Shown here: positions 2,729 through 24,184 of the stretch, in pieces | How positions within the stretch are numbered: the first letter of the stretch is position 1 | Layout of the letters: each line of letters opens with the position of its first letter | IMG/VR virus record: IMGVR_UViG_3300006802_012495 | Location: 1 to 24,184 of that record | From: a virus | Reading direction: 5' to 3' (one strand) | DNA length: 24,184 nt | Made by a program: the position numbers and the translations under genes | The notes under the pieces: generated by a model | Seen by the model: the letters and a program-made list of their open reading frames with translations, nothing else | Told to the model about the DNA's origin: nothing | The model's database searches: none

Positions 2729-4116
2729 TGGCATTAGATTTACAAAAAATTACTCTGCGTAGATTATTGGATACGCAGAGCCATGAACTATATTCTAAGA
2801 TATCTGGTGATTATTTTACCGGAATAAATCGTGTTATCTATGATAAAGTACAAACATTTTATAAAGCAAATTTACGTCTTCCTAGTATAGAAGAATTTCA
2901 TATTATTCGTAAAGATGAAGTACTTCAACAATATCTTGATACAGAAATCATTTCTGAAGATAATGTAAATGAAACAATTGCTAATGAGTTTTTGCTTTCA
3001 CAATTACAAGATTATTTTATTCGAGAAGAGACTATTGACTTTTTAGATAAATTTGTAGATTCTCTTGATAATTTAGAAAAAATAGAAATTGTAGATAAAT
3101 TTCAATCACACTTATTACACCTTAATTCTGCAATACCTTACGATGATGAGCTTTATGATGTGGCAGAACTTGAGTTTTTTCCGTCTGAAGATGATTTTCG
3201 TATTTTTCCAACAGGATTATCTGCTGAATATGATTCTGTTAATGGGGGTTTTGCTACACAAGAACTAGTATTGTTGGGTGGTCGCCGCGGTTCTGGTAAA
3301 TCTATTATCTCTTTAAACCTTGCTTTAAATAGGTTTTTAGAAGGTAATACTGTATCTTTTTTCTCAATTGAAATGCGGTACAAAGAAGTTTATGATAGAG
3401 TGCTTAGTATTATTTCTGGCGTTCCTTTCTTAGATTTATTTAGAAACAAACTTAATGACGGGCAAAAAATTCAATTAGCAGAAGCAAAGTTTAAAAACTT
3501 TTATGAAGAGTCTGATTTAGTTAAAAATCTTTTAGGAGAACTAAAACAGAAGAAAGATTTCAAAAAGTTTGAAACAAGAGTTAAAACAGAAAAACCAAAA
3601 CTAAAAGATCATAGATTATTTTTAATTGATGATGAATCTCTAACTCTTAATCGAATTGATCATTATTGTAATATGTTTACAAATAAATACCCAGACTATA
3701 ATATGGCAGTAGTAGACTATTTAAATATCGTAAAACACCCAGATCAAAAGAACTGGACTTCTCAAATTGAAATTGCAGATAATCTAAAATCTTTAGCGCG
3801 TAAACATGATGTGACAATGCTAACACCTTATCAAATTGATGCGACGGGAGAAGCTCGTTTCGCAAAAGGCATTTTAGATGCTGCAGACAGAGGTTTAAAC
3901 TTTTTTCCACCGCCTGAGAATGAGCAACGAGAACAAGAAAGCAAACTAACAATTCATACTACTAAAATTCGTAATGGTAAACATATGAGTTTTGATGTGT
4001 ATATGGATTGGAGCTGTGTTAAAATTGACCCTAATCAGTCTGCAATAATTAATGAAAAACCTCATAATTCTGTAAAATTTGGCTCTAATAAAGAAGAAGG
4101 GTCAAAAGACTTATAA
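2728..4116 (+). CDS. DnaB-like replicative DNA helicase
   Basis: 462 residues. It unwinds DNA ahead of the replication fork, 5' to 3', as a hexamer (family knowledge). The N-terminal 140 residues are helical, as in DnaB/T4 gp41 primase-interacting domains. The RecA-type core starts near 165 with Walker A GGRRGSGKS (184-192; K191), then the FFSIEM strand typical of DnaB, Walker B-like MAVVDYLNI (about 326-334) and a glutamine-bearing strand (LTPYQID). The C-terminal tail is acidic. A nearby primase gene supports a helicase-primase pair. It starts at the TAATG junction with the HTH gene and ends 12 bases before the next gene. Confidence 0.92.
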   Translation: MALDLQKITLRRLLDTQSHELYSKISGDYFTGINRVIYDKVQTFYKANLRLPSIEEFHIIRKDEVLQQYLDTEIISEDNVNETIANEFLLSQLQDYFIREETIDFLDKFVDSLDNLEKIEIVDKFQSHLLHLNSAIPYDDELYDVAELEFFPSEDDFRIFPTGLSAEYDSVNGGFATQELVLLGGRRGSGKSIISLNLALNRFLEGNTVSFFSIEMRYKEVYDRVLSIISGVPFLDLFRNKLNDGQKIQLAEAKFKNFYEESDLVKNLLGELKQKKDFKKFETRVKTEKPKLKDHRLFLIDDESLTLNRIDHYCNMFTNKYPDYNMAVVDYLNIVKHPDQKNWTSQIEIADNLKSLARKHDVTMLTPYQIDATGEARFAKGILDAADRGLNFFPPPENEQREQESKLTIHTTKIRNGKHMSFDVYMDWSCVKIDPNQSAIINEKPHNSVKFGSNKEEGSKDL

Positions 4117-5800: not shown

Positions 5801-8054
5801 TCTATGTTTTGTTTTTGCAAGTGCAGCGGAAAAAACTCCGCATAAGACAATTAATAAATATATAACCGATGTAGAATATGACGTAAAATTTTTATCATCT
5901 AGCTCAAAAGAAAAAATCTTAAAGAAAGATATTGATCTTAACTTAGAAGAATTAAATAAATATAAACTCATTTGTCCAGTAGGCGCAGAATCTTTAAAGT
6001 ATACCGCTGGTATTACTGGTATTCAAAAATATAATGGAATTCATATTGAGAAGAAGTATCTTCCAATTATGCATCCAAATATGACTATATTTAAGCCACA
6101 GCTTAATGACGATATTATTGCTGCCTTTGGTAAAATTAAACCTATTCTATCCGATGAAACTTTAGAGACACAAGTAGATAAAAACTATGATTCACTTGAT
6201 TCTCAAGCTAATTTTAATAAATATCTTCCACAATTAGAAGCCGCAAATACTATCGTAGTAGATATTGAGACGTCTAGCGTAAGTCCTTATACTGGCACAA
6301 TTCTTGGTATTGCTGTATCTACACGAGAGCACCAAGGTTTGTATATATCTAATCGTGTAGCTGAAAATAATCTCGAAACTCTTCATAATATTTTTTATAC
6401 AAAAAAATGTATTTTTCACAATGCAAAATTCGATATTCATTATCTAAATCATCATTATAAGTTTGTGTTTCCTGATTGGGAAGACACAATGCTTCTTCAT
6501 TACTGTTTAGAAGAATCAGTAGGAACGCACGGTCTTAAGCCATTGGCAATGCGTTTTACTGATCTTGGTGATTATGAACGTGAACTAGATGAGTATAAAA
6601 AGACTTTTGCAAGAAAGCATAAGATTAAACTAGCAGACTTTAGCTATTCTATGCTTCCTGAAGGTATTTTAGCTCCTTATGCTTGTAAAGATGCTGATGC
6701 TACTTTTCAACTATATAATAAGTTTAAGCCTCTTGTAGATAGAAGTAAAGAATTTACTCAGCTATATACAAATATTCTTAAGCCTGCTACAGACGCGCTA
6801 ATGACTCTTGAGCGTAATGGCGGTCCTATTAGTATGGAAAAACTATTATCGCTTGACGAAGAATATCAAATTGATATCGAAGAGTGTATGGCAGAAATTA
6901 CTCTACATCCTGACGTTCAAAGATTTGAACGAGTATTTGGAAAAACATTTAATCCAAATAGCACTGTTCAGTTACGAGAACTTTTTCAAACAGTTTGTGG
7001 AATTAAGCTAACAAAAAAGACGGCTACAGGCGCTGCAAGCGTAGACAAAGAAGTATTACAAGAAATTAATCATCCTTTAGCTCGCGCTATTCTTGACTTA
7101 CGAGAAAAAAGTAAAATGTCTGGAACTTACCTATCTAATATAGTTAAAGGGGTAGATAAAGACGGTCGTCTTCGTTCTGGTTTTAATATTCATGGAACAA
7201 CTTCGGGTCGTCTTTCTTCGTCAGGTAACTTAAACTATCAAAATATTCCTCGCGATAATAAAGACATTAAGAAAATTTTTGCAGCACGTCCAGGTTACAA
7301 AATTGTTCAATGTGACTTAGGCACTGCTGAGGTATATTATGCTGCTATTTTAAGTGGAGATTCTTTTCTACAAAAAGCATTTATTGAAAAGCTTGATTTC
7401 CATTCCTATGTAGCTAAACAAATGTTTAAGCTAGACTGCGAAGTAAAGGAAGTTAAATCACAATATCCGGCACAGCGACAGTATGCCAAAGCTATTACTT
7501 TTGGTATCATGTATCAAGCAGGTCCTGCTAAAATTGCAGAAACAGTTAATAAGGATGCGAAAGCAGGAGAAGAGATTAGCGTACCTCAAGCAAAACAATT
7601 TATTAGTAAGTATTTTGGTGAGGCTCGTTCCTTAAAGAAATATATTGATGCTTCTAATAGACAAATAGAAAGTCATGCGTATATTTATTCTTTCTTTGGT
7701 CGTAAACGAAGATTACCAGAATCTAAATCTCAAAACCCTGGTACAGCAAAACACGCAATTCGTTCTGGTGTAAACTTTCTAGTTCAGTCTGTTGCATCTG
7801 ATATTAACATTCTTGGTTTAATTGATTTAATTAGTTGGATTAATGAAAAAGGATACGAAAAGGATATTTTACCTTTTACGGTAGTTCATGACTCTATTGT
7901 ATCAGAAGTTAGAGAAGATTTACTAGACGAATATATAACAAATGCAAAACGCTGTATTCAAACAGATAGAGGATTAACAATTCCTAATTGTCCTATCAAA
8001 GTAGATTTTGAGGTTGGAACTACTTGGGGTGAGTTGGAGGAATATCATAGATAA
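5793..8054 (+). CDS. polA: DNA polymerase, family A, with 3'-5' exonuclease
   Basis: 753 residues; the replicative polymerase. After about 150 residues without a recognised domain come proofreading motifs: Exo I VVDIET (near 157), Exo II FHNAKFD (near 208) and Exo III YACKDADATF (near 296). Polymerase motif A is CDLGTAE (Asp508, Glu513). Motif B is RQYAKAITFGIMY (Arg562, Lys566, Phe570, Tyr574). Motif C is VVHDS (Asp700). Two departures from E. coli Pol I stand out: motif C has Ser in place of Glu (HDS, not HDE), and motif A lost the SQIELR pattern except the Glu. The residue equivalent to E. coli 762 is Phe. There is no 5'-3' nuclease domain; that activity is encoded separately at 22649. Catalytic aspartates are intact, so it should be active. 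Confidence 0.94.
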   Translation: MSDLCFVFASAAEKTPHKTINKYITDVEYDVKFLSSSSKEKILKKDIDLNLEELNKYKLICPVGAESLKYTAGITGIQKYNGIHIEKKYLPIMHPNMTIFKPQLNDDIIAAFGKIKPILSDETLETQVDKNYDSLDSQANFNKYLPQLEAANTIVVDIETSSVSPYTGTILGIAVSTREHQGLYISNRVAENNLETLHNIFYTKKCIFHNAKFDIHYLNHHYKFVFPDWEDTMLLHYCLEESVGTHGLKPLAMRFTDLGDYERELDEYKKTFARKHKIKLADFSYSMLPEGILAPYACKDADATFQLYNKFKPLVDRSKEFTQLYTNILKPATDALMTLERNGGPISMEKLLSLDEEYQIDIEECMAEITLHPDVQRFERVFGKTFNPNSTVQLRELFQTVCGIKLTKKTATGAASVDKEVLQEINHPLARAILDLREKSKMSGTYLSNIVKGVDKDGRLRSGFNIHGTTSGRLSSSGNLNYQNIPRDNKDIKKIFAARPGYKIVQCDLGTAEVYYAAILSGDSFLQKAFIEKLDFHSYVAKQMFKLDCEVKEVKSQYPAQRQYAKAITFGIMYQAGPAKIAETVNKDAKAGEEISVPQAKQFISKYFGEARSLKKYIDASNRQIESHAYIYSFFGRKRRLPESKSQNPGTAKHAIRSGVNFLVQSVASDINILGLIDLISWINEKGYEKDILPFTVVHDSIVSEVREDLLDEYITNAKRCIQTDRGLTIPNCPIKVDFEVGTTWGELEEYHR

Positions 8055-8541
8055 ATTTTATGACATAGTATTTCCCTTATTTGCTCTTAAAAAAGAGCCG
8101 TATGAGTTGGTATTTGATCATACTACTATAAAGGTTAGAAGAACAAGAGATTCTCATCTAGAAACAGTAGACGATAAAAAATTACAAGGTGATTATTTTG
8201 CTAGATTAATACAAATGCCTAAAAGATTAAAATTTGATTATACTTGTAGAAACATACAAGACTGCATTTATAGTAAAATTGTTTGGGGAGTAGATAAGAA
8301 AGCCAAAATACATCATTTAGATTTTAAAGAACCTTATCCAGCACGATGGATGCCGATTGAAAGAACCAAGAACAATCTTATTTGGATTAAAGGAATATCA
8401 TATCCTTATGAGTTAAACACAAAAGAAAATTTACAAATTACAGAAAAGACATATGCAAGAGTTGTAAAATATTATAATGAATGGTATTTATACGGTTTTT
8501 CTACAGAACCAAATGATGTAAATAAATATGAATTAATATGA
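8029..8541 (+). CDS. Hypothetical protein with uncertain start
   Basis: About 165-177 residues depending on the start; I do not recognise the family. It is basic and aromatic-rich, with no transmembrane segment. The frame has no ATG in its first part. Options are TTG at 8008, GTG at 8029 (given here, weakly supported), or a rare ATA at 8047 placed 6 bases after a perfect GGAGG (8036-8040). All overlap the end of the polymerase gene. The stop overlaps the following gene by 4 bases (ATGA), which supports real translation of this frame. Function unknown. Confidence 0.6.
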   Translation: MSWRNIIDKFYDIVFPLFALKKEPYELVFDHTTIKVRRTRDSHLETVDDKKLQGDYFARLIQMPKRLKFDYTCRNIQDCIYSKIVWGVDKKAKIHHLDFKEPYPARWMPIERTKNNLIWIKGISYPYELNTKENLQITEKTYARVVKYYNEWYLYGFSTEPNDVNKYELI

Positions 8542-8765
8542 GCGGTAAAATATTATTTTTAGCAGATATTATTGAACAAAAAATACGTAAAGAGAAAGAA
8601 CTTTCTTTTTATGAAAAAGAATTAGAAAAATTGAAACAAAAGATGGAATATTTAGAAAAAGACATACTTGTTACAAATATTATTATAGACGCAATTACAA
8701 ATGAAAAATTACAGATAAACGGTAATATAATTACACTTATAGAAGAAGAAGAAAAAAATGAATGA
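8538..8765 (+). CDS. Small coiled-coil protein, 75 aa
   Basis: Residues 12-50 are rich in Lys/Glu with heptad-spaced Leu/Ile (KELEKLKQKMEYLEKD), predicting a coiled coil, followed by a short hydrophobic segment and an acidic tail (LIEEEEKNE). It probably dimerises or binds a partner; function unknown. It overlaps the upstream gene by 4 bases and the downstream methyltransferase gene by 8 bases, consistent with an operon of coupled genes. Confidence 0.6.
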   Translation: MSGKILFLADIIEQKIRKEKELSFYEKELEKLKQKMEYLEKDILVTNIIIDAITNEKLQINGNIITLIEEEEKNE

Positions 8766-13500: not shown

Positions 13501-14469
13501 ATGAAAATATTACACTCAGCCGATTGGCACATTCTATTACACAAAAAGAAAGTTCCTTATGAATGGCAAATTAACAGATTTAAGTCATTCTTTAGAAAAT
13601 TAATAGCGTTAGAACAATCTTGTGATATTCACATTATTGCGGGAGATGTTTTTGATAAGAAACCAGAACCTGATGAAATATGTTTATTTCTAACATATAT
13701 AAATTCCGTAAACATTCCCACCTATATAATCCCTGGTAATCATGAAGCAACAAAAAGAGGGGAATCTTTCTTAGAACACTTTACACAAGAAAATGCTATT
13801 AAAAATCCAAACGTACATCTTATTACTAAAAATCAACGCATTGAAATTAATAACACTTGGTTTCAATTTTTTCCATATGGAGAAATGCAGATTGATAATT
13901 TACCTAAACCATATGATCAAGATATACTGGTCACTCACATTCGAGGGGAAGTACCGCCTCATATCACTGCAGAGTATGATTTCGAGAAACTTCGTCCCTG
14001 GAAACTTATTTTACTCGGGGATCTTCACTTTGCTCATAAGTACTTGGATTATCCAGCTTATTATCCTGGTAGTCCTGTTAATGTAACCTTTGATAGAGAC
14101 GAAAAAAGAGAATACGGAATTAATTTAATTGATTTTAAATCTATTGATAATTATTCCGTAGAGTTTATAGATTTAAAACTACCAAAGCTATTACGAAAAA
14201 CCATTTCTGTTAATGATAATATGTTAAAAGACTCTTTTAATCATATAATGTATGAAGTAACAGGGTCTGTGGATGAGTTATCTAAAATTAAAAATTCAGA
14301 ACTATTAGATAAAAAAATAGCAACTAAGGTAACAGAAGACTCAAAGCTAGATTTAAAAGATAAATCTATAGTTGAAGAGCTTGAGTTATATCTTAAATTT
14401 GTTAAAATTAAAAATATAGATGATATATTAAAAGACTTTAAAGATTTAAATTTACATGCACAATATTGA
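13501..14469 (+). CDS. sbcD: SbcD/Mre11-like nuclease subunit (gp47-like)
   Basis: 322 residues. Metallophosphoesterase nuclease that, with SbcC/gp46, processes DNA ends for recombination-dependent replication. Metal-binding motifs in order: DWH (Asp8, His10), GDVFD (Asp49), GNHE (Asn80, His81), VTHIRGE and GDLHFAH. The C-terminal 100 residues are Lys/Asp-rich and would contact the SbcC base. P3 drives it. Its partner gene is not adjacent: a PP-loop gene lies between, overlapping this gene by 14 bases and sbcC by 13. Confidence 0.92.
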   Translation: MKILHSADWHILLHKKKVPYEWQINRFKSFFRKLIALEQSCDIHIIAGDVFDKKPEPDEICLFLTYINSVNIPTYIIPGNHEATKRGESFLEHFTQENAIKNPNVHLITKNQRIEINNTWFQFFPYGEMQIDNLPKPYDQDILVTHIRGEVPPHITAEYDFEKLRPWKLILLGDLHFAHKYLDYPAYYPGSPVNVTFDRDEKREYGINLIDFKSIDNYSVEFIDLKLPKLLRKTISVNDNMLKDSFNHIMYEVTGSVDELSKIKNSELLDKKIATKVTEDSKLDLKDKSIVEELELYLKFVKIKNIDDILKDFKDLNLHAQY

Positions 14470-15418
14470 TTTATCTTTAAATAGGGTATTTTGGGAGTAT
14501 GCACAAACAAAATCATATATGAGACCTACAAAAGGATATTACTGTCATTCTGAAATTCCTAGTCTTGGTGTTTATGTTACCGCACCACACTACAAAAATT
14601 GTAGTAAAACTATCCGAGAAGACTATTTTAAAATTGTAAGTGCTTTTGCTGATAAGTATAAAGACTATAAGTTTGTTTTGGGTTTAAGTGGTGGCATTGA
14701 TTCAGAAGTTTGTGCAGAAACATTTTATCAACTAAATATTCCTTTTACAGCTATTAGTTTAAGATTATTTAACGGAGAAAATGATTTTGATTTAGTGTAT
14801 GCAGCTAAATATTGTAAAGATCGCGGTATAAAGCATAAAGTAATTCCTTTATCCTTTGATGTGTTAATAGAAAAAGTAGTACCAAAAGCTGTTAAATATG
14901 GACAGTTTACACACTCTATTAGTCAAGTAGCATTAACTTATTTATTTGAATTTATAAAACCTAATGAGATATTAATAAATAGCGGTCACAATCCAGATTA
15001 TTATAGTTCTTTAGGATTAGGTTGGTGGGAAGATTCTCCTAACTATGTAAAATACGCTATTAACACAAAGAATAAATTTATCACTTTTACCAGCTTAGAA
15101 CCAATCTTCTGTCATTACGCAAAAAATTACGATTCTTCCCAGCCAGGAGATAAAAATAATAATTTTCTCTATGAGTCATACGATAATTTACCAGAAAGAA
15201 TAAAAAGAACTGGGTGGGAAAATAGTAGCAAACAAACAATAGAAGGCACAGAGTTTTTACGGGAAAAATGTAATAGGGCACACCAAACTTTTATTACGTG
15301 GAAAAATCTTACATTAAGATATAAACAAACACTAGAAAAAGAACTAGATAAACACCTATTAGAAAATAAACAATGGGAACTATATAAATTATTAACAGGC
15401 GCTAAATGGCTAGTATAA
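14456..15418 (+). CDS. PP-loop (N-type) ATP pyrophosphatase-like enzyme
   Basis: 320 residues. The PP-loop is VLGLSGGIDSEV (SGGIDS at 78-83), which binds ATP and adenylates a substrate, as in QueC, asparagine synthetase, GMP synthetase and tRNA-modifying enzymes. Downstream NSGHNPDYYSSLG and the aromatic-rich N-terminus (GYYCHSEIP) are not diagnostic of one subfamily. No QueD, QueE or FolE neighbours are present, so a 7-deazaguanine pathway is not shown. A glutaminase domain is also absent, arguing against an asparagine or GMP synthetase. It is locked between sbcD and sbcC by overlaps at both ends. Likely activity: ATP-dependent adenylation of an unknown base, nucleoside or acid. Confidence 0.75.
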   Translation: MHNIDLSLNRVFWEYAQTKSYMRPTKGYYCHSEIPSLGVYVTAPHYKNCSKTIREDYFKIVSAFADKYKDYKFVLGLSGGIDSEVCAETFYQLNIPFTAISLRLFNGENDFDLVYAAKYCKDRGIKHKVIPLSFDVLIEKVVPKAVKYGQFTHSISQVALTYLFEFIKPNEILINSGHNPDYYSSLGLGWWEDSPNYVKYAINTKNKFITFTSLEPIFCHYAKNYDSSQPGDKNNNFLYESYDNLPERIKRTGWENSSKQTIEGTEFLREKCNRAHQTFITWKNLTLRYKQTLEKELDKHLLENKQWELYKLLTGAKWLV

Positions 15419-17244
15419 CATTAAAAAATTTAGAATTTTCAAACATGTTTTCTTATGGAGAAAACAATAAAATCTCTCTTAATAACAATAAAATAACACA
15501 ACTCACTGCTCCCAACGGTAGTGGGAAGTCTTCTATTGCTATTATTCTTCAAGAAACCCTATTTAATAAGAATATAAAAAGTATTAAAAAAGCAGATATA
15601 TCAAATCGTTATAGTAATAATACTTCTTGGACATCTAAACTTTATTTTAGTGTAGATGATAAAGATTTTAGTATTAATATTAAAAGAACAGGCGCTAAAA
15701 GTGAAGTATATTTTTATCAAGAAAGTCCTGAATATATTGATCTAACGGAGCATAAAGTACTAGATACTTATAAGAAAGTACAAGACATTTTAAATTTAGA
15801 TTTTGAAGTATTTTCTCAATTAACGTATCAGAGTTCAATTGATTTACTTGAGTTTTTAAAAGCAACAGATACTAATCGTAAAAAGTTTTTAATTAATTTA
15901 TTTAATTTAGAAAAGTATGTAAAGATAGGAGAAACTTTAAAAGTAAAAAGTAACTCGTTAGATAAAGAACTAGCTATTTTGCAAGGAGAGCTAAAATCAA
16001 TTGAAGACTTTTTAAATAATACAAGTATTTCAGATAAAATACAAGAAGTTGTTGTCCCAGAAACAGATGAAGCACTTATTAAAGAATTAGGAGCTATTGA
16101 AACAGAGCTACGAGTATATGAATCAACTTGTAAAAAAATTGATGTCAATAATATGTACATACAAGAAAGAAAAGCTCTTAAATTTGATATGGCAGCTAAA
16201 AAACCTGAAGGAGGACGAGAATTATTTAATGCTCTTGAAGAGTTAAAAAGAGATGCCAGATCTAAAGATTCTGATAGAAAAAGATTAGAAAGCTCTTTAA
16301 AGCAACTTGATTTAACAGATACTTGTTATGCTTGTGGTCAACATATTGATAATTCAAAAGCTAAAGAATTACAAAGAAGCTTAGACAAAGAATTACTAGA
16401 AGTAAATATTTCTTTAGACAATCTACAAAAAGAAATAGAGTATGCTAGAGATGTTTATTTATCATATAAAGACGATGCTCAAAATTATGAAATAAACCAA
16501 AAAGCTATAGAAAAATTTGAACAACTAAGTCAAGTTATTGATGAAACTATTCCTACAAATTATCCTAATTTTGGAGACTTAGAAACTAAAAAGAAAAACT
16601 TAGAACAACAAGTTAAATCTCAAGCAGAAATAAAACAAAAAGCAATAGACCACAATCAACAAGTTGGTATACATAATGCTAAGGTAGATGCCCTAATTGA
16701 GCAAAAAGAATCATTTTCTTCTAGACAGCATAGTATAAAAAATGATATTATTAATCTTTCTAATAAAGTTGCAAATTTAAATGTACTAAAAAAGGCATTT
16801 AGTACCTCAGGAATTGTTGCTTTTAAATTAGAAAACCTAACTAAAGAATTAGAATTAGCAATTAATCGTTATCTAGCTTCTTTGTCAGATGGACAATTTC
16901 AAGTTTCGTTTAAATTAGATAAAGAAAAATTAAATATTGTTGTCTCTAACAATGGGGTTGACACTCCTATAGAAACCGTATCTGGAGGTGAATTTAGTAG
17001 AATTCAGACCGCTATACTCTTAGCAATTAGATCTTTGCTAGCTAAACTTGGCGGTAGTAGTGTCAACCTACTTTTCTTAGACGAAATTACAGGTGTTCTA
17101 GATGATGAAGGTAAAGAAAAACTAATTGAAGTACTTCGTGAAGAAGATGATTTAAATGTATTTTTAATTTCTCACGATTTCACACATCCTATCATTGATA
17201 AAGTATCAATAGTAAAACAAAATAACATAAGCAGTATCCAATAA
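15406..17244 (+). CDS. sbcC: SbcC/Rad50-like ATPase subunit (gp46-like)
   Basis: 612 residues, close to phage gp46 and far shorter than bacterial SbcC. Walker A is APNGSGKSS (35-43). Long Lys/Glu/Leu-rich coiled-coil arms are interrupted by the zinc hook CYACGQ (Cys307, Cys310). The ABC signature SGGEFSR (near 526) and Walker B LLFLDEITGVLDDEG (near 556) follow, with a switch His in ISHDF. It forms the ATP-gated clamp partner of SbcD in DNA end resection. Confidence 0.93.
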   Translation: MASITLKNLEFSNMFSYGENNKISLNNNKITQLTAPNGSGKSSIAIILQETLFNKNIKSIKKADISNRYSNNTSWTSKLYFSVDDKDFSINIKRTGAKSEVYFYQESPEYIDLTEHKVLDTYKKVQDILNLDFEVFSQLTYQSSIDLLEFLKATDTNRKKFLINLFNLEKYVKIGETLKVKSNSLDKELAILQGELKSIEDFLNNTSISDKIQEVVVPETDEALIKELGAIETELRVYESTCKKIDVNNMYIQERKALKFDMAAKKPEGGRELFNALEELKRDARSKDSDRKRLESSLKQLDLTDTCYACGQHIDNSKAKELQRSLDKELLEVNISLDNLQKEIEYARDVYLSYKDDAQNYEINQKAIEKFEQLSQVIDETIPTNYPNFGDLETKKKNLEQQVKSQAEIKQKAIDHNQQVGIHNAKVDALIEQKESFSSRQHSIKNDIINLSNKVANLNVLKKAFSTSGIVAFKLENLTKELELAINRYLASLSDGQFQVSFKLDKEKLNIVVSNNGVDTPIETVSGGEFSRIQTAILLAIRSLLAKLGGSSVNLLFLDEITGVLDDEGKEKLIEVLREEDDLNVFLISHDFTHPIIDKVSIVKQNNISSIQ

Positions 17245-17290: not shown

Positions 17291-19414
17291 ATGTTAGCAC
17301 CCGGAAAATTTCCGATTACGTTCGCTTTGCGAAATTCATTCAAAGAAGAGCTTAAATCTAAACCAGTAAATTGGGGATATGGAGGTTTATCAGAATTTAC
17401 TTTCTATCGTACCTATTCCCGTAAAAAATCAGATGGAACCATGGAGACATGGGCAGACTGTGTTATTCGAATTATTGAGGGTATGTTCTCTATTCTCAAA
17501 ACTCACTCTGTATCCTCTTATATTACCTGGGACGAAAAACGTGCTCATAAATTAGCAGAAGAAGCAGCTACAAGATTACTTGATTTTAAATGGATGCCTC
17601 CTGGTCGTGGTCTTTGGATGATGGGTACCCCTTTTATTTGGGAAAAAGGAGGCGCAGCTCTTAATAATTGCGCTTTTGTATCTACAATTGATATTGATGC
17701 AGAACTTTCTAAATCATTTGCCTTCCTCATGGACATGAGCATGGTTGGTGTAGGTGTTGGGTTTGACACCAAAGGAGCTGAAAAAATTACTTCTATAGAG
17801 CCAGAAGGCTCTCCAGAATTAATTCATATTGAAGATTCTAGAGAAGGATGGGTAGAAGCACTGTCTTGTTTAATTGATTCTTATTTAGAAGAAGGATCTA
17901 CACCTGTACAATTTGATTATTCACAAATCAGAGCTTATGGAGAACCTATTAAAGGGTTTGGTGGTGTAGCTTCTGGACCTGATCCTCTTCGTCACGGATT
18001 AGAAGGTATTAGAGATATACTTACTAAACGAGCAAAATCTGACAATCCTTTAGTTTCTTCTGTAGATATTACTGATATTATGAATATTATTGGTAAAATT
18101 GTTGTTGCAGGTAACGTCCGTCGTACTGCTGAAATTGCCTTTTCTGAACCAGAAGATAATGCTTTCATGAATATGAAGAACTGGGAAACAGCAGAAGTAG
18201 AAACAGGTTCTAAAGCACCAGAAGAGCTAAAAGAAATAAACTTAGAAGACTACAAAAAGTACAATTCAGATTGGGATTCAAGAACAGAAATTGCCAAAAA
18301 GTATAATGATGAACCTTGGGCATATAAATTTGGCGGTTGGCGTTGGGCTTCTAATAATTCTATTTTTGCACAAGTTGGAATGGATTATACAGAAGCTGCA
18401 AAATCAATTGCTATTTCTGGAGAACCAGGGTTTGCTTGGCTAAAAAATATGCAACAATATAGCCGTATGAAAGACCCCGCAGACTGGAAAGATAGAAGAG
18501 TTGCTGGAGGTAATCCTTGTTTGGAACAGTCTCTTGAGTCTTATGAGCTTTGTTGTTTAGTAGAAACATTTCCAGCTAAACACAATGATTACTGGGATTA
18601 TCAACGTACCTTAAAGTTTGCCTATCTATATGCAAAAACGGTTACGTTAATGGCTACTCATTGGCAAGATACTAACGATGTTATTAAACGTAATCGTCGT
18701 ATCGGCTGCTCTCAGTCAGGCATTCAAGAGGCTATTCTTAAATTTGGTCGTCGTAAGTATCTTGATGAATATTGTGATAGAGCCTATACTTATATTCAAT
18801 ATGTTGATAGAAAATATTCTGAATGGTTGGGTGTTCCTCTTTCTCGTAAAACTACCTCTGTTAAACCATCAGGAACTGTTAGTCTCGTAGCAGGTGCTTT
18901 ACCCGGTATTCATTATGCAGAAAATGAATCATATTATCGTACTGTACGTCTTTCTGCTATTTCTCCATTAGTAAGTATTCTTAAACAAGCTGGTTATAGA
19001 ATTGAGCCTGCTGTTTCAGATCCTATTCGTACTGTGGTAGTATATTTTCCTGTTGTTCACCCAGTAGGAACTATCTCAAAACACGATGTATCTATTTGGG
19101 AACAGTTTGCTAACGCAGTAGATATGCAAAAATATTGGGCAGATAACCAAGTATCTATTACAATTACTTTTAAACCGGGAGAGGCAGATCAAATTGCTCG
19201 TGCTCTTTCTTGTTTTGATTCTCAATTAAAAGGTGTTTCTTTATTGCCTATCTCTGAACATGGTTATGCTCAGGCTCCTTACATCACGACAGGTCGTCAG
19301 GAAATTGAAGCATACGCCTCAACACTTAAACCCCTAAACTTTAAGATACTTTCTGAAGAAGGAGAAAATGCAGACGCTAATAAATTCTGTGACTCGGATG
19401 GTTGCGTAATTTAA
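17291..19414 (+). CDS. nrdJ: Adenosylcobalamin-dependent (class II) ribonucleoside-triphosphate reductase
   Basis: 707 residues, similar in length to the monomeric Lactobacillus leichmannii enzyme. It reduces NTPs to dNTPs using vitamin B12 radicals, with or without oxygen. Catalytic residues: NPCLEQ with thiyl-radical Cys410 and Glu412, partner cysteines Cys127 (NNCAFVST) and Cys421 (ELCCLVE), the phosphate-binding VKPSGTVSL, and the C-terminal redox pair Cys700/Cys705 (CDSDGC). All essential residues are present. It is preceded by AAGGAG and shares one base (TAATG) with the DUF1289 gene. Glutaredoxin at 20270 could re-reduce its cysteines. Acquiring B12 from the host is a requirement. Confidence 0.94.
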   Translation: MLAPGKFPITFALRNSFKEELKSKPVNWGYGGLSEFTFYRTYSRKKSDGTMETWADCVIRIIEGMFSILKTHSVSSYITWDEKRAHKLAEEAATRLLDFKWMPPGRGLWMMGTPFIWEKGGAALNNCAFVSTIDIDAELSKSFAFLMDMSMVGVGVGFDTKGAEKITSIEPEGSPELIHIEDSREGWVEALSCLIDSYLEEGSTPVQFDYSQIRAYGEPIKGFGGVASGPDPLRHGLEGIRDILTKRAKSDNPLVSSVDITDIMNIIGKIVVAGNVRRTAEIAFSEPEDNAFMNMKNWETAEVETGSKAPEELKEINLEDYKKYNSDWDSRTEIAKKYNDEPWAYKFGGWRWASNNSIFAQVGMDYTEAAKSIAISGEPGFAWLKNMQQYSRMKDPADWKDRRVAGGNPCLEQSLESYELCCLVETFPAKHNDYWDYQRTLKFAYLYAKTVTLMATHWQDTNDVIKRNRRIGCSQSGIQEAILKFGRRKYLDEYCDRAYTYIQYVDRKYSEWLGVPLSRKTTSVKPSGTVSLVAGALPGIHYAENESYYRTVRLSAISPLVSILKQAGYRIEPAVSDPIRTVVVYFPVVHPVGTISKHDVSIWEQFANAVDMQKYWADNQVSITITFKPGEADQIARALSCFDSQLKGVSLLPISEHGYAQAPYITTGRQEIEAYASTLKPLNFKILSEEGENADANKFCDSDGCVI

Positions 19415-19590
19415 TGCCTAAAGCTAAATATTCTCCTTGTATTAAAGTATGTGAATACGATGATGAAGGTTACTGCCTCGGTTGTCAAAGAACAGCCGAG
19501 GAGGTGACTACTTGGAGAGATCGTACAGAAGAAGAACAATTAGCAGGAATTGAAATGCTAATAGAAAGAAGACTAGCGAGAATATGCTAA
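19414..19590 (+). CDS. DUF1289 family protein, 58 aa
   Basis: The cysteine pattern SPCIKVCEYDDEGYCLGCQR is the DUF1289 signature (Cys-x3-Cys ... Cys-x2-Cys), followed by the RT-x-EE-x-x-W segment and an Arg-rich tail. DUF1289 proteins are small, widespread in Proteobacteria, and suspected metal or Fe-S binders; function is not established. ATG at 19414 overlaps the RNR stop by one base and is preferred to the upstream TTG. The link to RNR suggests redox or metal handling. This may be a gene taken from a host. Confidence 0.85.
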   Translation: MPKAKYSPCIKVCEYDDEGYCLGCQRTAEEVTTWRDRTEEEQLAGIEMLIERRLARIC

Positions 19591-19773: not shown

Positions 19774-20235
19774 ATGATAAATAGAATAGAAAATTTCAAG
19801 ATTCTTAGGTTAGATAAGGAATTGCCCCTCCCTAAATATGAAACAGCTCACTCGGCAGGAATGGATTTATACTGCTCTGAGGATGTAGAGATTTTTTCAA
19901 ATGCAATTACAATAGTGCCCACAGGAATTGCTATTGCTCTTCGTCCTGGTTATGAAGCGCAGATTCGTCCGCGAAGCGGACTTGCTGCAAAACATGGGAT
20001 AACGATAGTTAATTCCCCTGGCACAATTGATGCAGACTATCGAGGAGAAATTAAAGTATTACTTACTCGTATTGGACAAGCTACACCAAAAAGCATTTTT
20101 CTGGCTAAAGGATCACGTATCGCTCAAATGGTTATATCTAACATTTATCATGTTGAGTGGAAAGAAGTAGAAACTGGATTAGAGCTAGACGCCACAGAAA
20201 GAGGAACTGGTGGCTTTGGTTCTACTGGAATTTAG
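19774..20235 (+). CDS. dut: dUTP diphosphatase
   Basis: 153 residues with all five trimeric dUTPase motifs: SAGMDLY (Asp31), RPRSGLA (65-71), GTIDADYRGEI (catalytic Asp86, Tyr89), GSRIAQ (113-118) and RGTGGFGSTG (143-152). It hydrolyses dUTP to dUMP, preventing uracil in phage DNA and feeding ThyX. The motif set is complete, so it should be active. It follows a 22-base gap with only a weak GGGA ribosome site. A second, degenerate relative is at 23472. Confidence 0.95.
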   Translation: MINRIENFKILRLDKELPLPKYETAHSAGMDLYCSEDVEIFSNAITIVPTGIAIALRPGYEAQIRPRSGLAAKHGITIVNSPGTIDADYRGEIKVLLTRIGQATPKSIFLAKGSRIAQMVISNIYHVEWKEVETGLELDATERGTGGFGSTGI

Positions 20236-20521: not shown

Positions 20522-21213
20522 TGGCAAACGGTAGACCCCTAAAACGGGTGCGAATTGATGATTTACTTACCTTTGCTCCTAAAACAGAAAACCAAGATAA
20601 GACATATAAGTCTTACAAAGAAAATAAAAACTTAGTTCTTCACGGATTAGCTGGAACCGGAAAAACTTTTATATCTTTGTATTTAGCGCTTGAAGAAGTG
20701 CTTGACAAAAGCACTGACCCAACAGATATATTTATCGTGCGTTCTATCGTTTCTACTCGCGATATCGGCTTTCTTCCTGGAGATGAACAAGAAAAAGTAT
20801 CTATTTACGAAGCTCCGTACAGATCTATCTGTTCGGAGCTTTTTAACGTGCCTGACGCTTATGAATCTTTAAAAGCACAAGGCACGATTAAGTTTATAAG
20901 TACATCTTTTGTTAGAGGCATAACCATAAATAAATCTGTAGTGATTGTGGATGAATGTCAGAACTTGAATTTCCATGAACTTGATTCTATAATAACAAGA
21001 GTTGGGCAAAATAGTCGTATTATTTTTTGTGGCGACTATACACAAACCGACTTAACAAGAGAAAATGATAGAAAAGGTATACTGAAGTTTATGGAGATAC
21101 TTTCCCACATTAAAGAATTTAAAACTGTTGAGTTTATGATTGACGATATTGTGAGAAGTGACTTTTTAAAATCTTACATAATCGCTAAGTATAAACTAGG
21201 AATTAATGGTTAA
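20521..21213 (+). CDS. phoH: PhoH-like P-loop ATPase
   Basis: 230 residues. Walker A GLAGTGKT (42-49), Walker B VIVDECQN, FCGDYTQTDL (sensor-like) and a C-terminal region with VEFMIDDIVRS match the PhoH family, common in phage. It is an RNA/DNA-stimulated ATPase with proposed helicase or RNase-linked function; the phage role is not established. It overlaps the downstream nuclease gene by 8 bases. A terminator-like hairpin lies within it. Confidence 0.9.
   Translation: MANGRPLKRVRIDDLLTFAPKTENQDKTYKSYKENKNLVLHGLAGTGKTFISLYLALEEVLDKSTDPTDIFIVRSIVSTRDIGFLPGDEQEKVSIYEAPYRSICSELFNVPDAYESLKAQGTIKFISTSFVRGITINKSVVIVDECQNLNFHELDSIITRVGQNSRIIFCGDYTQTDLTRENDRKGILKFMEILSHIKEFKTVEFMIDDIVRSDFLKSYIIAKYKLGING
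20810..20844 (+). terminator. Terminator-like hairpin inside phoH
   Basis: AAGCTCCG (20810-20817) pairs with CGGAGCTT (20834-20841); after a T-T mismatch, ACAGA/TCTGT closes a TCTA loop, and TTTTT ends the stem (20840-20844). This is the shape of a rho-independent terminator but lies in coding sequence, so it may cause attenuation or be neutral. Confidence is in the structure, not its action. Confidence 0.45.
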
Positions 21214-21652
21214 TAAATCAAAAATAAAAGGTTCGGCATACGAAGCTAAAATTAAACGATACTTAAACTCTCATCTAAACATTCAATTTGAGCGTATGCC
21301 GCTTTCAGGAGCAATTGAGTATTTAAAAGGTGATTTATGGACTCCGCACGATACCGCTGGTTGGCCCTATTGTATTGAGTGTAAGCACTATAAACATATT
21401 GAATGGAATAATCTATTAACCTCTAGAACAACAGATTTACTTCAATTTTGGCGACAAGCAGAAAGAGAAGCAGAGGTAATGAAAAAGAAACCTCTACTTA
21501 TTTTTCGCTGGAATCGTTCAAAAGATTTTGTCGGGTGGAACGATGAGATTGAGGTAGAACATTATGTTGAAGTTAAATCTTTTGGATGTCATTTCAAGAT
21601 TACACAACTTGATGATTGGGTAAAAGCTTTAAAAGATCAAAAGAATATTTAA
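21206..21652 (+). CDS. PD-(D/E)xK nuclease, Hjc-like Holliday junction resolvase
   Basis: 148 residues. The N-terminal KGSAYEAKIKRYL helix (Glu13), RMPLSGA, GDLWTP (Asp43) and the ECK motif (Glu58, Lys60, CIECKHYK) follow the archaeal Hjc/PD-(D/E)xK nuclease pattern. It would cut four-way junctions from recombination-dependent replication, fitting the SbcCD and helicase genes. Another PD-(D/E)xK role, such as an endonuclease, cannot be excluded. The gene overlaps phoH by 8 bases. Confidence 0.75.
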   Translation: MVNKSKIKGSAYEAKIKRYLNSHLNIQFERMPLSGAIEYLKGDLWTPHDTAGWPYCIECKHYKHIEWNNLLTSRTTDLLQFWRQAEREAEVMKKKPLLIFRWNRSKDFVGWNDEIEVEHYVEVKSFGCHFKITQLDDWVKALKDQKNI

Positions 21653-21653
21653 A

Positions 21654-22604
21654 ATGTCAGAATTAATTAAAGTTTCAACAGTAAATAAAAACAATTTTGA
21701 TTTAAAAATAGATTATCTATTAACTTTTAGATGCAATTATGATTGTTCTTACTGTATATCTCACGATACAAACCATCCTTCCTTACAACGAACTCCAAAC
21801 GAGATTATTGATGCGTTAAATTTTATTTTTAAACAATACTTAAATAAAAAAATTAAATTATCTATATTAGGTGGAGAGCCTTTTGTATATAAATATTTTA
21901 TAAACCTAGTTAATGAATTATCAAATAATAATTTTTTACAAATAAATATTGTAACTAACTTATCTGTGACTGAAAAATTATTAGAAAATCTTAAAGTGTC
22001 TAAAAATATCCGCATTGCTGCATCTTATCATCCAGAATATTCTAATAATAAAGATTTTGTAAATAAGATAAAATATTTACAAAATAGAGGGTTTAAAACA
22101 GCCTGCTCTGTAAGTATTCATCCTGATGAAAAATATTTAAAAAATTCGCTTTACGTTTTAGAAAATCTTACTGGTGAGGTGTTTCCTAAGTTTTTATCTT
22201 CCATGCAAGAATCAAACGTAAACATTTTTGGAAAGTCTTATGATTACTCTAAAAAAATAAAAACGGCTACTAGAAAATATCATAATAGAGTGCTTAGTCA
22301 CAATTTTAAATATGAATATGTAGATGAGACTAGTAAAATTTTCTCGTTCTCTGACATAACAATAAATAATTTAGACAATTTTAAAGGTTTACTTTGCAGA
22401 GCAGGACATGACAAATTACATATCAATGAGAGAGGAGATATATTTCCAGCTGCGTGTTTTTTAAACACTCGGGTTATGTTGGGTAATATGTTTAAAAATA
22501 CTTTTAAGAAACCAAGAAGTTACGTAACTTGTCCATTTACCTCTTGTAAATGCACAAGTGATTTAAGCTTGACTAAATTTAAAAGTAACAAATTAGTTGC
22601 TTAA
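21654..22604 (+). CDS. Radical SAM enzyme with SPASM-like C-terminal cysteines
   Basis: 316 residues. CNYDCSYC (Cys27, 31, 34) is the C-x3-C-x2-C site for the [4Fe-4S]-SAM cluster, and LSILGGEPF is the GGE motif that holds SAM. The C-terminal cysteines 248, 268, 293, 298 and 300 (LLCRAG, AACF, CPFTSCKC) suggest a SPASM or Twitch auxiliary cluster. That feature is typical of enzymes that modify peptides, proteins or nucleic-acid-linked substrates. It is not QueE-like in length or context. Start at ATG 21654 directly after the nuclease stop, with a weak ribosome site; the following gene has its own promoter, so this one ends the operon. Its substrate is unknown. Confidence 0.8.
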   Translation: MSELIKVSTVNKNNFDLKIDYLLTFRCNYDCSYCISHDTNHPSLQRTPNEIIDALNFIFKQYLNKKIKLSILGGEPFVYKYFINLVNELSNNNFLQINIVTNLSVTEKLLENLKVSKNIRIAASYHPEYSNNKDFVNKIKYLQNRGFKTACSVSIHPDEKYLKNSLYVLENLTGEVFPKFLSSMQESNVNIFGKSYDYSKKIKTATRKYHNRVLSHNFKYEYVDETSKIFSFSDITINNLDNFKGLLCRAGHDKLHINERGDIFPAACFLNTRVMLGNMFKNTFKKPRSYVTCPFTSCKCTSDLSLTKFKSNKLVA

Positions 22605-22648: not shown

Positions 22649-23494
22649 ATGACTAAATCTTGGAATGACCTTGCAGATATCTCTGCACCTACTATTGATG
22701 ATACATTTGAAAATCTACTTTTAATTGACGCAAACAACGTAGCTTATCGTTGGTTACAGCGTGTAAACTACAATAACTTTGCAACAGATTTTCAACGCAC
22801 AATACAATCTCTCACTAAATCTTATGAAGCTGCTAGAACCATTGCCTGTTTTGACTTTGGTCGTAGCTATTATCGTTCTACGCTATACGAAGAATATAAG
22901 CAAAATCGTAAAAAACCTAAAGAGGAAGAAGAAGCCAAGAAGTACGAAGAATTCTTTGCAGTACTAAACGAGCTTCCCAAAAAACTTAATGAAGAGACGC
23001 TAAAGTTTCGTGGAGTAGAAGCTGACGACCTAATTACCTATGCAGTAAAGCACCTATCTCCTAAATATAATCATACTTGGATTATTTCTTCTGACCGTGA
23101 CCTTTACCAATTAGTTGATGATAATGTAAGTATTTTTAATATGTTTTCTCGTAGAGAAATTACAAAGCAAACTTTATCACAAGACTTTGAGCTAAATCCA
23201 AGTGAGTATCTTCTTTCTCGTATTATAGAAGGAGACAAGTCTGATAACATTTTGGGTATTGAAGGAATTGGTCCAAAACGGGCGCAGGGTCTTGCTAAAG
23301 AATATAAGTCTCTTGATAGCCTAATAAAAGCACTTCCTATAAAAGGACGGTCAAAGTATATTATCAATCTAAATGCGGGTAAAGAAATTCTGCTTCGTAA
23401 TGAAAAACTTATAGATCTAAAAACACATAATAAAGAAGCTATTATTAGTGGGAAAGAAGGTGATTCTATTTATGTCGAACTCTCTTCCTTATAA
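22649..23494 (+). CDS. 5'-3' exonuclease / flap endonuclease (T5 D15-like)
   Basis: 281 residues. It removes RNA primers and flaps. Metal-binding acids and motifs: LIDANN, CFDFGRSYYR, VEADDLITY, ISSDRDLYQL, then GDKSDNILGIEGIGPKRA with a helix-3-turn-helix that binds DNA. The arrangement is that of PIN-type phage nucleases (T5 D15, T4 RNase H). This supplies the 5' nuclease absent from the polymerase at 5793. Driven by P4; it overlaps the next gene by 23 bases. Confidence 0.92.
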   Translation: MTKSWNDLADISAPTIDDTFENLLLIDANNVAYRWLQRVNYNNFATDFQRTIQSLTKSYEAARTIACFDFGRSYYRSTLYEEYKQNRKKPKEEEEAKKYEEFFAVLNELPKKLNEETLKFRGVEADDLITYAVKHLSPKYNHTWIISSDRDLYQLVDDNVSIFNMFSRREITKQTLSQDFELNPSEYLLSRIIEGDKSDNILGIEGIGPKRAQGLAKEYKSLDSLIKALPIKGRSKYIINLNAGKEILLRNEKLIDLKTHNKEAIISGKEGDSIYVELSSL

Positions 23495-24032
23495 AATTGA
23501 CTATGAAATAAGTACAGAAGCACAAGAACTATCAAAACAACTAGGAGTTTCTTGGTTATTAGATCAAGAAACTCCTTTTGATCCTTTTTATAGGTTAAGA
23601 GCTGTTATTCAAGATAACGTAGAAATACAACCACATGAAACTGTACCTGTTTCTACAGGTATATATTTACAGAATGTAAACCCTTATATTCAAGCTGAAA
23701 TTTTATCTTTTTCTTCTTTAACGTATGAAAAAAATCTTATTGTGCTTGATAGTCCTGCTATATATAACTGGTCACACAGAAATCAAATTGTGGTTTTACT
23801 TCATAATGTAAGTAACAAAGTTGAATATATTTTTCCTAGCCAAATTATTGCTTGTTTAAGATTTACCACAATTCCTTTAGTGTTTTTTAACAGAGTATAC
23901 CAAGTAGAAGAAGCTCCCTATAGTTTTGATTGTCAAGGTTGGATTCAAAAATTGAAACAAAAAAAGAAGGAAGATAGACCTTCTGAAGAATATTCTAGAG
24001 AAGATATAGAGAAGTATTTAAATGACCGTTAA
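23472..24032 (+). CDS. Degenerate dUTPase-fold protein
   Basis: 186 residues from ATG 23472, which has AAGGTG 9 bases upstream. Residues 52-135 align by eye with the core of the canonical dUTPase at 19774: VSTGI with VPTGI, PYIQAEI with GYEAQI, SSLT with SGLA, then VVLLHNVSN with KVLLTRIGQ. The active residues are lost: RSG has become FSS, and the GTIDADY loop has become SPAIYNW. The Gly-rich fifth motif is absent. The acidic-basic tail (KKKEDRPSEEYSRED) is new. It may be a regulatory or partner-binding dUTPase/dCTP-deaminase relative without catalysis. It overlaps the thyX start by 11 bases. Confidence 0.6.
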   Translation: MSNSLPYKIDYEISTEAQELSKQLGVSWLLDQETPFDPFYRLRAVIQDNVEIQPHETVPVSTGIYLQNVNPYIQAEILSFSSLTYEKNLIVLDSPAIYNWSHRNQIVVLLHNVSNKVEYIFPSQIIACLRFTTIPLVFFNRVYQVEEAPYSFDCQGWIQKLKQKKKEDRPSEEYSREDIEKYLNDR

Positions 24033-24184
24033 ACTAATATCCTATTCACAACCTAAAAATACAGCTGCTTTTGATCACGGTTGGTCAAAGCTAGAAGATA
24101 TTGTTGCTTATTGTGCAAGAATATCTAACCCAAATAACCAAAATAATTCAAAAACTAGTAATAACCTATTAAGTTATTTAATTA
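24022..24184 (+). CDS. thyX: Flavin-dependent thymidylate synthase, N-terminal part (runs off window)
   Basis: The 54 visible residues hold VAYCARISNP and LLSYLI, which match the N-terminus of ThyX (YCARVSNP-type segment and L-x-YLI). ThyX makes dTMP from dUMP with FAD and methylenetetrahydrofolate. The RHR FAD-binding motif would lie beyond the edge. It starts 11 bases inside the preceding gene. Together with dUTPase and RNR it completes a dTTP supply route. Confidence 0.85.
   Translation, partial: MTVKLISYSQPKNTAAFDHGWSKLEDIVAYCARISNPNNQNNSKTSNNLLSYLI

Follow-up and report, generated by a model that had tools for sequence, protein, structure and literature searches.

A phage protein with a predicted dUTPase fold and no retained catalytic motifs in the T5-type dut slot

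Introduction

Why should a phage that encodes a canonical dUTPase also carry a second protein of the same predicted fold whose active site is gone? This question is raised by the window analysed here, which is the whole 24,184-base IMG/VR record IMGVR_UViG_3300006802_012495, a partial genome. The DNA polymerase, SbcD, SbcC, PDDEXK nuclease and 5'-3' exonuclease encoded in it share 33-41% identity with those of T5-like phages, and the window is therefore taken to derive from a distant, uncultured marine relative of T5. A first-pass annotation of the sequence had described a dUTPase fold without active site next to thyX, and had suggested that the protein binds ThyX or the true dUTPase, or acts as an anti-defence decoy sensing dUTP.

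Inactive dUTPase relatives are already known from animal viruses, as are non-catalytic roles of phage dUTPases. T5 phage without dut shows a growth defect, and the wild-type phenotype of a dut amber phage is restored by T5 dUTPase carrying S68A or D85N, both of which are catalytically dead, while the active enzyme lacking a six-residue loop fails to restore growth (PMC10815766). The authors of that study speculate on a role in particle assembly (PMC10815766). What appears to be new, within the literature and databases searched, is a phage clade that maintains the protein after its catalytic function was lost and taken over by other enzymes.

Gene neighbourhood

The features of the locus are collected in Table 1. 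The adjacency to thyX noted in the first pass is confirmed by the overlap of the two reading frames, and the identity of the truncated thyX was verified on an overlapping contig (L001), which contains the full thyX plus the end of the degenerate dUTPase gene. On its other side, the degenerate gene overlaps the exonuclease gene, an arrangement found in 53/53 degenerate members examined.

Table 1. Genes of the window and segments of the degenerate dUTPase-fold protein; positions are those of the window and residue numbers those of the degenerate protein
Feature	Position	Strand	Remarks
SbcD-like nuclease subunit	13501..14469	+	Relative of T5 (37.5%)
SbcC-like ATPase	15406..17244	+	Relative of T5 (33%)
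Canonical dUTPase	19774..20235	+	All five motifs; between ribonucleotide reductase and glutaredoxin genes
PDDEXK nuclease	21206..21652	+	Relative of T5 D14 (34%)
5'-3' exonuclease	22649..23494	+	Relative of T5 D15 flap endonuclease, 37% identity; 3' end overlaps start of degenerate dUTPase gene
Degenerate dUTPase-fold protein	23472..24032	+	186 aa, ATG start; ORF confirmed as real; sequence homology, predicted fold
N-terminal segment, residues 12-30	23505..23561	+	Not in canonical dUTPases; common to active and degenerate slot members
Motif I remnant, residues 37-42	23580..23597	+	DPFYRL vs DAGYDL (AGxD to DPFYR)
Motif II remnant, residues 78-84	23703..23723	+	LSFSSLT vs RPRSGLA (RSG to FSS)
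Motif III remnant, residues 93-105	23748..23786	+	Catalytic Asp is Asn99
Motif IV remnant, residues 122-128	23835..23855	+	PSQIIAC (GDRIAQ to SQIIAC)
C-terminal helix, residues 155-164	23934..23963	+	QGWIQKLKQK; I158 and K162 >90% conserved
Tail motif	23991..24017	+	YSREDIEKY; in most of the degenerate clade, replaces the motif V arm
thyX, 5' part only	24022..24184	+	Gene cut by window end; overlaps degenerate dUTPase gene by 11 bases

Homology and predicted fold

The degenerate protein shares 28% identity with the canonical dUTPase of the window (E=3.8e-4), in agreement with the core alignment claimed in the first pass. Searched against PDB dUTPases, the single sequence gave E=6.2e-8 (phmmer) and a 31-member profile gave E=2.6e-18. 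Scans with the single sequence returned no match in Pfam and nothing usable in PHROG. The AlphaFold2 model has a mean pLDDT of 86.5, and its top matches listed in the PDB are exclusively dUTPases, with TM-scores to the target of 0.72-0.92, so that structure prediction and superposition bear out the fold proposed for this protein. A second member of the degenerate clade (L018) gave the same outcome in homology and structure comparison, and the alignments behind both AlphaFold2 models contained no canonical dUTPase. By predicted fold and by sequence homology the degenerate protein belongs to the homotrimeric dUTPase superfamily; the models are of single chains, and the trimer is putative.

Loss of the catalytic motifs

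None of the five dUTPase motifs is retained in the window protein (0/5, with the catalytic Asp and Ser included in the criterion): motifs I to IV persist as remnants (Table 1) and motif V is absent. The active-site loss, first described for the catalytic Asp loop and the RSG motif, therefore extends beyond these two elements to all five motifs. In keeping with this, the protein scores 33.9 bits against the NCBIfam dUTP diphosphatase model, compared to a cut-off of 103 bits. The E. coli dUTPase row in the alignments served as a visual guide only, and the motif counts are independent of it.

The motif state is all-or-none in the slot family, with 0/5 in every degenerate member, 5/5 in the active-slot members described below and no intermediates seen. 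Across the degenerate clade the position of the catalytic Asp is occupied by D, P, E, N or G. Two other positions have become largely aromatic: after weighting, 90% of the degenerate sequences have Phe or Tyr instead of the motif I glycine, and 91% instead of a neighbouring motif III Val. Judged from the sequences, such bulky aromatics at the old pocket would fit a pocket that has been filled, and the window protein is best read as a pseudoenzyme, probably without dUTPase catalysis.

Distribution and phylogeny

The exonuclease was used as bait to retrieve 80 related loci, in most of which the next gene encodes a relative of the degenerate protein, and a profile search added further family members to this set. 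In total, the degenerate gene was found in about 70 IMG/VR contigs (~72 by contig names), forming ~30 clusters at 80% identity. Seven contigs (L072, L075, L076, L078, L079, L080 and L114) carry, in the same slot, active relatives with five intact motifs. All records of the degenerate gene are metagenomic contigs, none of the isolated phages searched carrying it. A scan of viral contigs with a single degenerate sequence returned one overlapping contig (L001), and a scan of bacterial genomes for the degenerate gene returned ordinary cellular dUTPases only.

In a tree of slot genes and other dUTPases, the slot family forms one group (100/99), within which the degenerate proteins are a single clade (100/100) with the active-slot proteins as sister clade. 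Active and degenerate slot members have in common two additions that the other dUTPases compared lack, ~10 residues ahead of motif I and a helix at the C-terminus. In the exonuclease tree, the active-slot phages are nested among the degenerate ones, on a long, moderately supported branch, and the slot gene may therefore have moved between lineages; gene exchange and long-branch error are both possible sources of this discordance.

Substitute pyrophosphatases

A substitute pyrophosphatase is encoded near the ribonucleotide reductase genes in 32/32 degenerate-gene records that cover this upstream region, a number that is lower when counted independently because several records are near-copies; nine further searched records stop short of the region and are not included in the 32. 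The substitute is a MazG type A protein in 26 records and in G052, and a DR2231-like MazG protein unrelated to type A in G044, G045 and G049, where a weak MazG match was identified as this enzyme on closer checking. In the window and L009 it is a canonical dUTPase. The dUTPases at this position between reductase and glutaredoxin genes score low with strict motif patterns, and by eye all of them carry the motifs. From their families, the MazG enzymes would be expected to hydrolyze dUTP: the MazG superfamily includes the dimeric dUTPases, and a MazG-like enzyme of D. radiodurans cleaves dUTP (PMC5122711).

G051, the sole active-slot record to cover the region, has no second dUTPase there and no MazG-type enzyme either. 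Six further records (L034, L037, L038, L040, L070 and L083) have a canonical dUTPase in the region and no slot gene matched beside the exonuclease.

Selection and conserved features

The degenerate gene has a median dN/dS of about 0.22-0.23 across 78 close pairs, which are not independent of one another, compared to 0.03 for the exonuclease and 0.10 for thyX in the same pairs (Nei-Gojobori; an all-pairs version was saturated and dropped). The gene is under purifying selection, yet evolves faster than its neighbours. Its reading frame is intact in all 53 distinct degenerate members and has been kept across divergence down to about 27-30% identity.

In the N-terminal segment A17 and W28 are invariant, and E12, L20 and E21 are conserved at 93-97%. 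The tail has the consensus Y-S/E-R-x-x-I, with three members lacking it (L004, L006 and L042) and two showing a changed form (L073 and L082). The distance of this tail motif from the thyX start varies, so the ribosome-binding site of thyX does not by itself account for it. The N-terminal segment, the C-terminal helix and the tail are where a second function may lie.

Comparison with the T5 dUTPase

In six T5-like isolates the flap endonuclease gene is followed by dut in 6/6 cases, with the two genes overlapping or nearly so. The degenerate gene has the same placement, 3' of and overlapping the flap endonuclease gene within the SbcCD-D14-exonuclease cluster, just as the gene for the T5 dUTPase (PDB 8QKY; PMC10815766) lies downstream of SbcD-SbcC-D14 and overlaps the flap endonuclease gene that precedes it. 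The correspondence is positional only, because sequence trees do not group the T5 dUTPases together with the slot family described here. Furthermore, the T5 protein is enzymatically active, with all motifs and the functional loop (residues 30-35, between beta2 and beta3), none of which is found in the window protein. This loop was considered as a shared functional element and rejected, as the degenerate protein has no insertion at that place and the family's own extra segments lie elsewhere. The dUTPase of the T5-like Vibrio phage PG07 also appears to be without most of the loop.

The feature of the T5 dUTPase that matters here is its non-catalytic growth role, which survives catalytic mutation (PMC10815766). 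The degenerate family can be regarded as repeating that experiment in nature: the protein has been retained and its catalytic residues are gone.

Function of the degenerate protein

Selection maintains a gene whose chemistry is now supplied by another enzyme, so it is probably kept for something other than catalysis. The explanation we consider probable is that of a pseudoenzyme in the T5 dut slot that keeps a non-catalytic role, probably one of protein contact. Catalysis by the slot gene would have become dispensable once a trimeric dUTPase or a MazG-type enzyme had taken over dUTP clean-up, and the slot protein would have been kept for a further, catalysis-independent part that the slot dUTPase was already playing in the lytic cycle, as the T5 enzyme does. 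This role could be exerted through the lineage-specific N-terminal segment, the C-terminal helix and the tail motif, probably displayed on a trimeric barrel. Bacterial and phage dUTPases have been suspected of an extra role that outlasts catalytic mutation, and evolution appears here to have split the two roles.

Other explanations account for parts of these observations. Simple decay towards a functionless gene could explain the complete loss of the catalytic motifs and a dN/dS above that of the neighbouring genes, but is very improbable given the intact frames, the dN/dS of close pairs and a new tail motif conserved in a protein this divergent. A new enzyme, with the shape kept and a different active site or substrate, would be in line with purifying selection and with the near invariance of the polar residues E12, E21, R103, E105, N112 and K162. 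These residues look structural, however, because the active-slot dUTPases have them too, and the old pocket shows no new invariant polar cluster but fixed aromatics and a variable former catalytic position, so that a new activity is improbable. The same low probability is given to a regulatory or dominant-negative subunit mixing with an active dUTPase of phage or host. The sharing of dUTPase active sites between subunits and the presence of genes for both proteins in the window and L009 speak for such mixing, but most carriers have a MazG-type enzyme and no canonical dUTPase. This makes the phage's own canonical dUTPase, one of the partners named in the first pass, unlikely as an obligate partner; a host enzyme could still take part in such mixing.

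A counter-defence protein or antirepressor that mimics dUTPase to engage a regulator of the host or of a satellite, in the way that staphylococcal phage dUTPases bind Stl, would draw on the known catalysis-independent antirepressor activity of phage dUTPases and on the faster evolution of the gene. Its fixed position in a conserved replication and recombination operon across ~30 clusters is nevertheless not that of a variable defence-type locus, and a PADLOC scan of the degenerate protein gave no match; this explanation is accordingly held to be improbable, if slightly less so than a new enzyme or a mixed subunit. The proposed decoy sensing dUTP is likewise unlikely, as the residues that hold uracil and phosphate are gone and the motif I glycine has mostly become aromatic.

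For the favoured pseudoenzyme with a contact role, ThyX was rejected as a constant partner from gene positions. thyX is the usual next gene, but in L073 and L074 it lies ~31 kb away while the degenerate gene still overlaps the exonuclease gene, and there are phages with thyX and without the degenerate gene (L034, L070). Taken with the universal overlap described above, this makes the exonuclease the constant neighbour, as in T5. Owing to this constancy, and to the precedent of the M. tuberculosis dUTPase and AdnAB, the best guess for a partner is the exonuclease/SbcCD/D14 cluster, although we put it forward tentatively. A narrower proposal, likewise held with low probability, is that an old enzyme survives in a whole phage clade solely as a protein-contact factor for the exonuclease and recombination proteins, and that the catalytic arm has given way to a new docking motif (YSRExI) at the C-terminus. 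Were this so, it would demonstrate in a natural system that a T5-type dUTPase has a second function which can be separated from the chemistry and outlive it. Overall, the first-pass observation holds in a stronger form than claimed, and its outline of a protein acting by binding rather than by catalysis is probably right, with the fold kept and all five motifs lost, whereas the partners it named are not favoured.

Relation to known non-catalytic dUTPases

The reuse of dUTPase folds after loss of catalysis is shared with the dUTPase-related proteins (DURPs) of herpesviruses and the inactive dUTPases of betaherpesviruses (PMC11599850). Those proteins, however, have two or three domains and come from animal viruses, whereas the window protein is a single phage domain of 186 aa, and its sister clade in the same position is active. 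The dUTPase-related protein of bovine immunodeficiency virus likewise has no dUTPase activity, and mutation of its gene blocks virus production, but it is a truncated remnant of 74 residues, whereas the window protein keeps the whole predicted barrel (PMC4261571).

The M. tuberculosis dUTPase physically contacts and modulates the helicase-nuclease AdnAB with the involvement of a lineage-specific surface loop, but its catalytic inactivation also lowers the effect, in contrast to the window protein, which is without catalytic residues (PMC13309787). Staphylococcal phage dUTPases that bind Stl signal non-catalytically via an extra motif (motif VI), but these proteins retain the dUTPase motifs and cannot signal without motif V, which the window protein lacks (PMC4914113, PMC5593958).

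Variation in neighbouring genes

The genes around the slot differ among relatives in several respects. A protein weakly similar to NAD synthase and asparagine synthase is encoded between the SbcD and SbcC genes of the window (14456-15418). Radical-SAM-type genes are found at 21654-22604 of the window and at 4506-5498 of L001; the former lies between the D14-like nuclease and exonuclease genes, at a spot that is variable among relatives. L120 carries between its PhoH-like and PDDEXK genes an ORF that by eye resembles serine hydroxymethyltransferase (7508-8653). In L004, an S-adenosylmethionine decarboxylase gene (3031-3396) lies near the reductase gene, and a gene for SAICAR synthetase of purine synthesis (7294-8025) is inserted between the degenerate dUTPase gene and thyX. 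The G050 contig (L083) encodes a ThyA-type thymidylate synthase (84964-85809), and its 112.8-kb record gave no ThyX match, while other relatives carry ThyX.

The ribonucleotide reductase type also differs, being class II in the window (17291-19414) and L007, and class I with large and small subunits in L114 (159-3216) and L120 (1471-4943); in L114 and L111 the class I small subunit has a glutaredoxin-like N-terminus. Directly 5' of the canonical dUTPase gene, the window encodes a small DUF1289 protein (19402-19590), and a stretch similar to this gene also precedes the dUTPase in L034, L037, L038 and L040.
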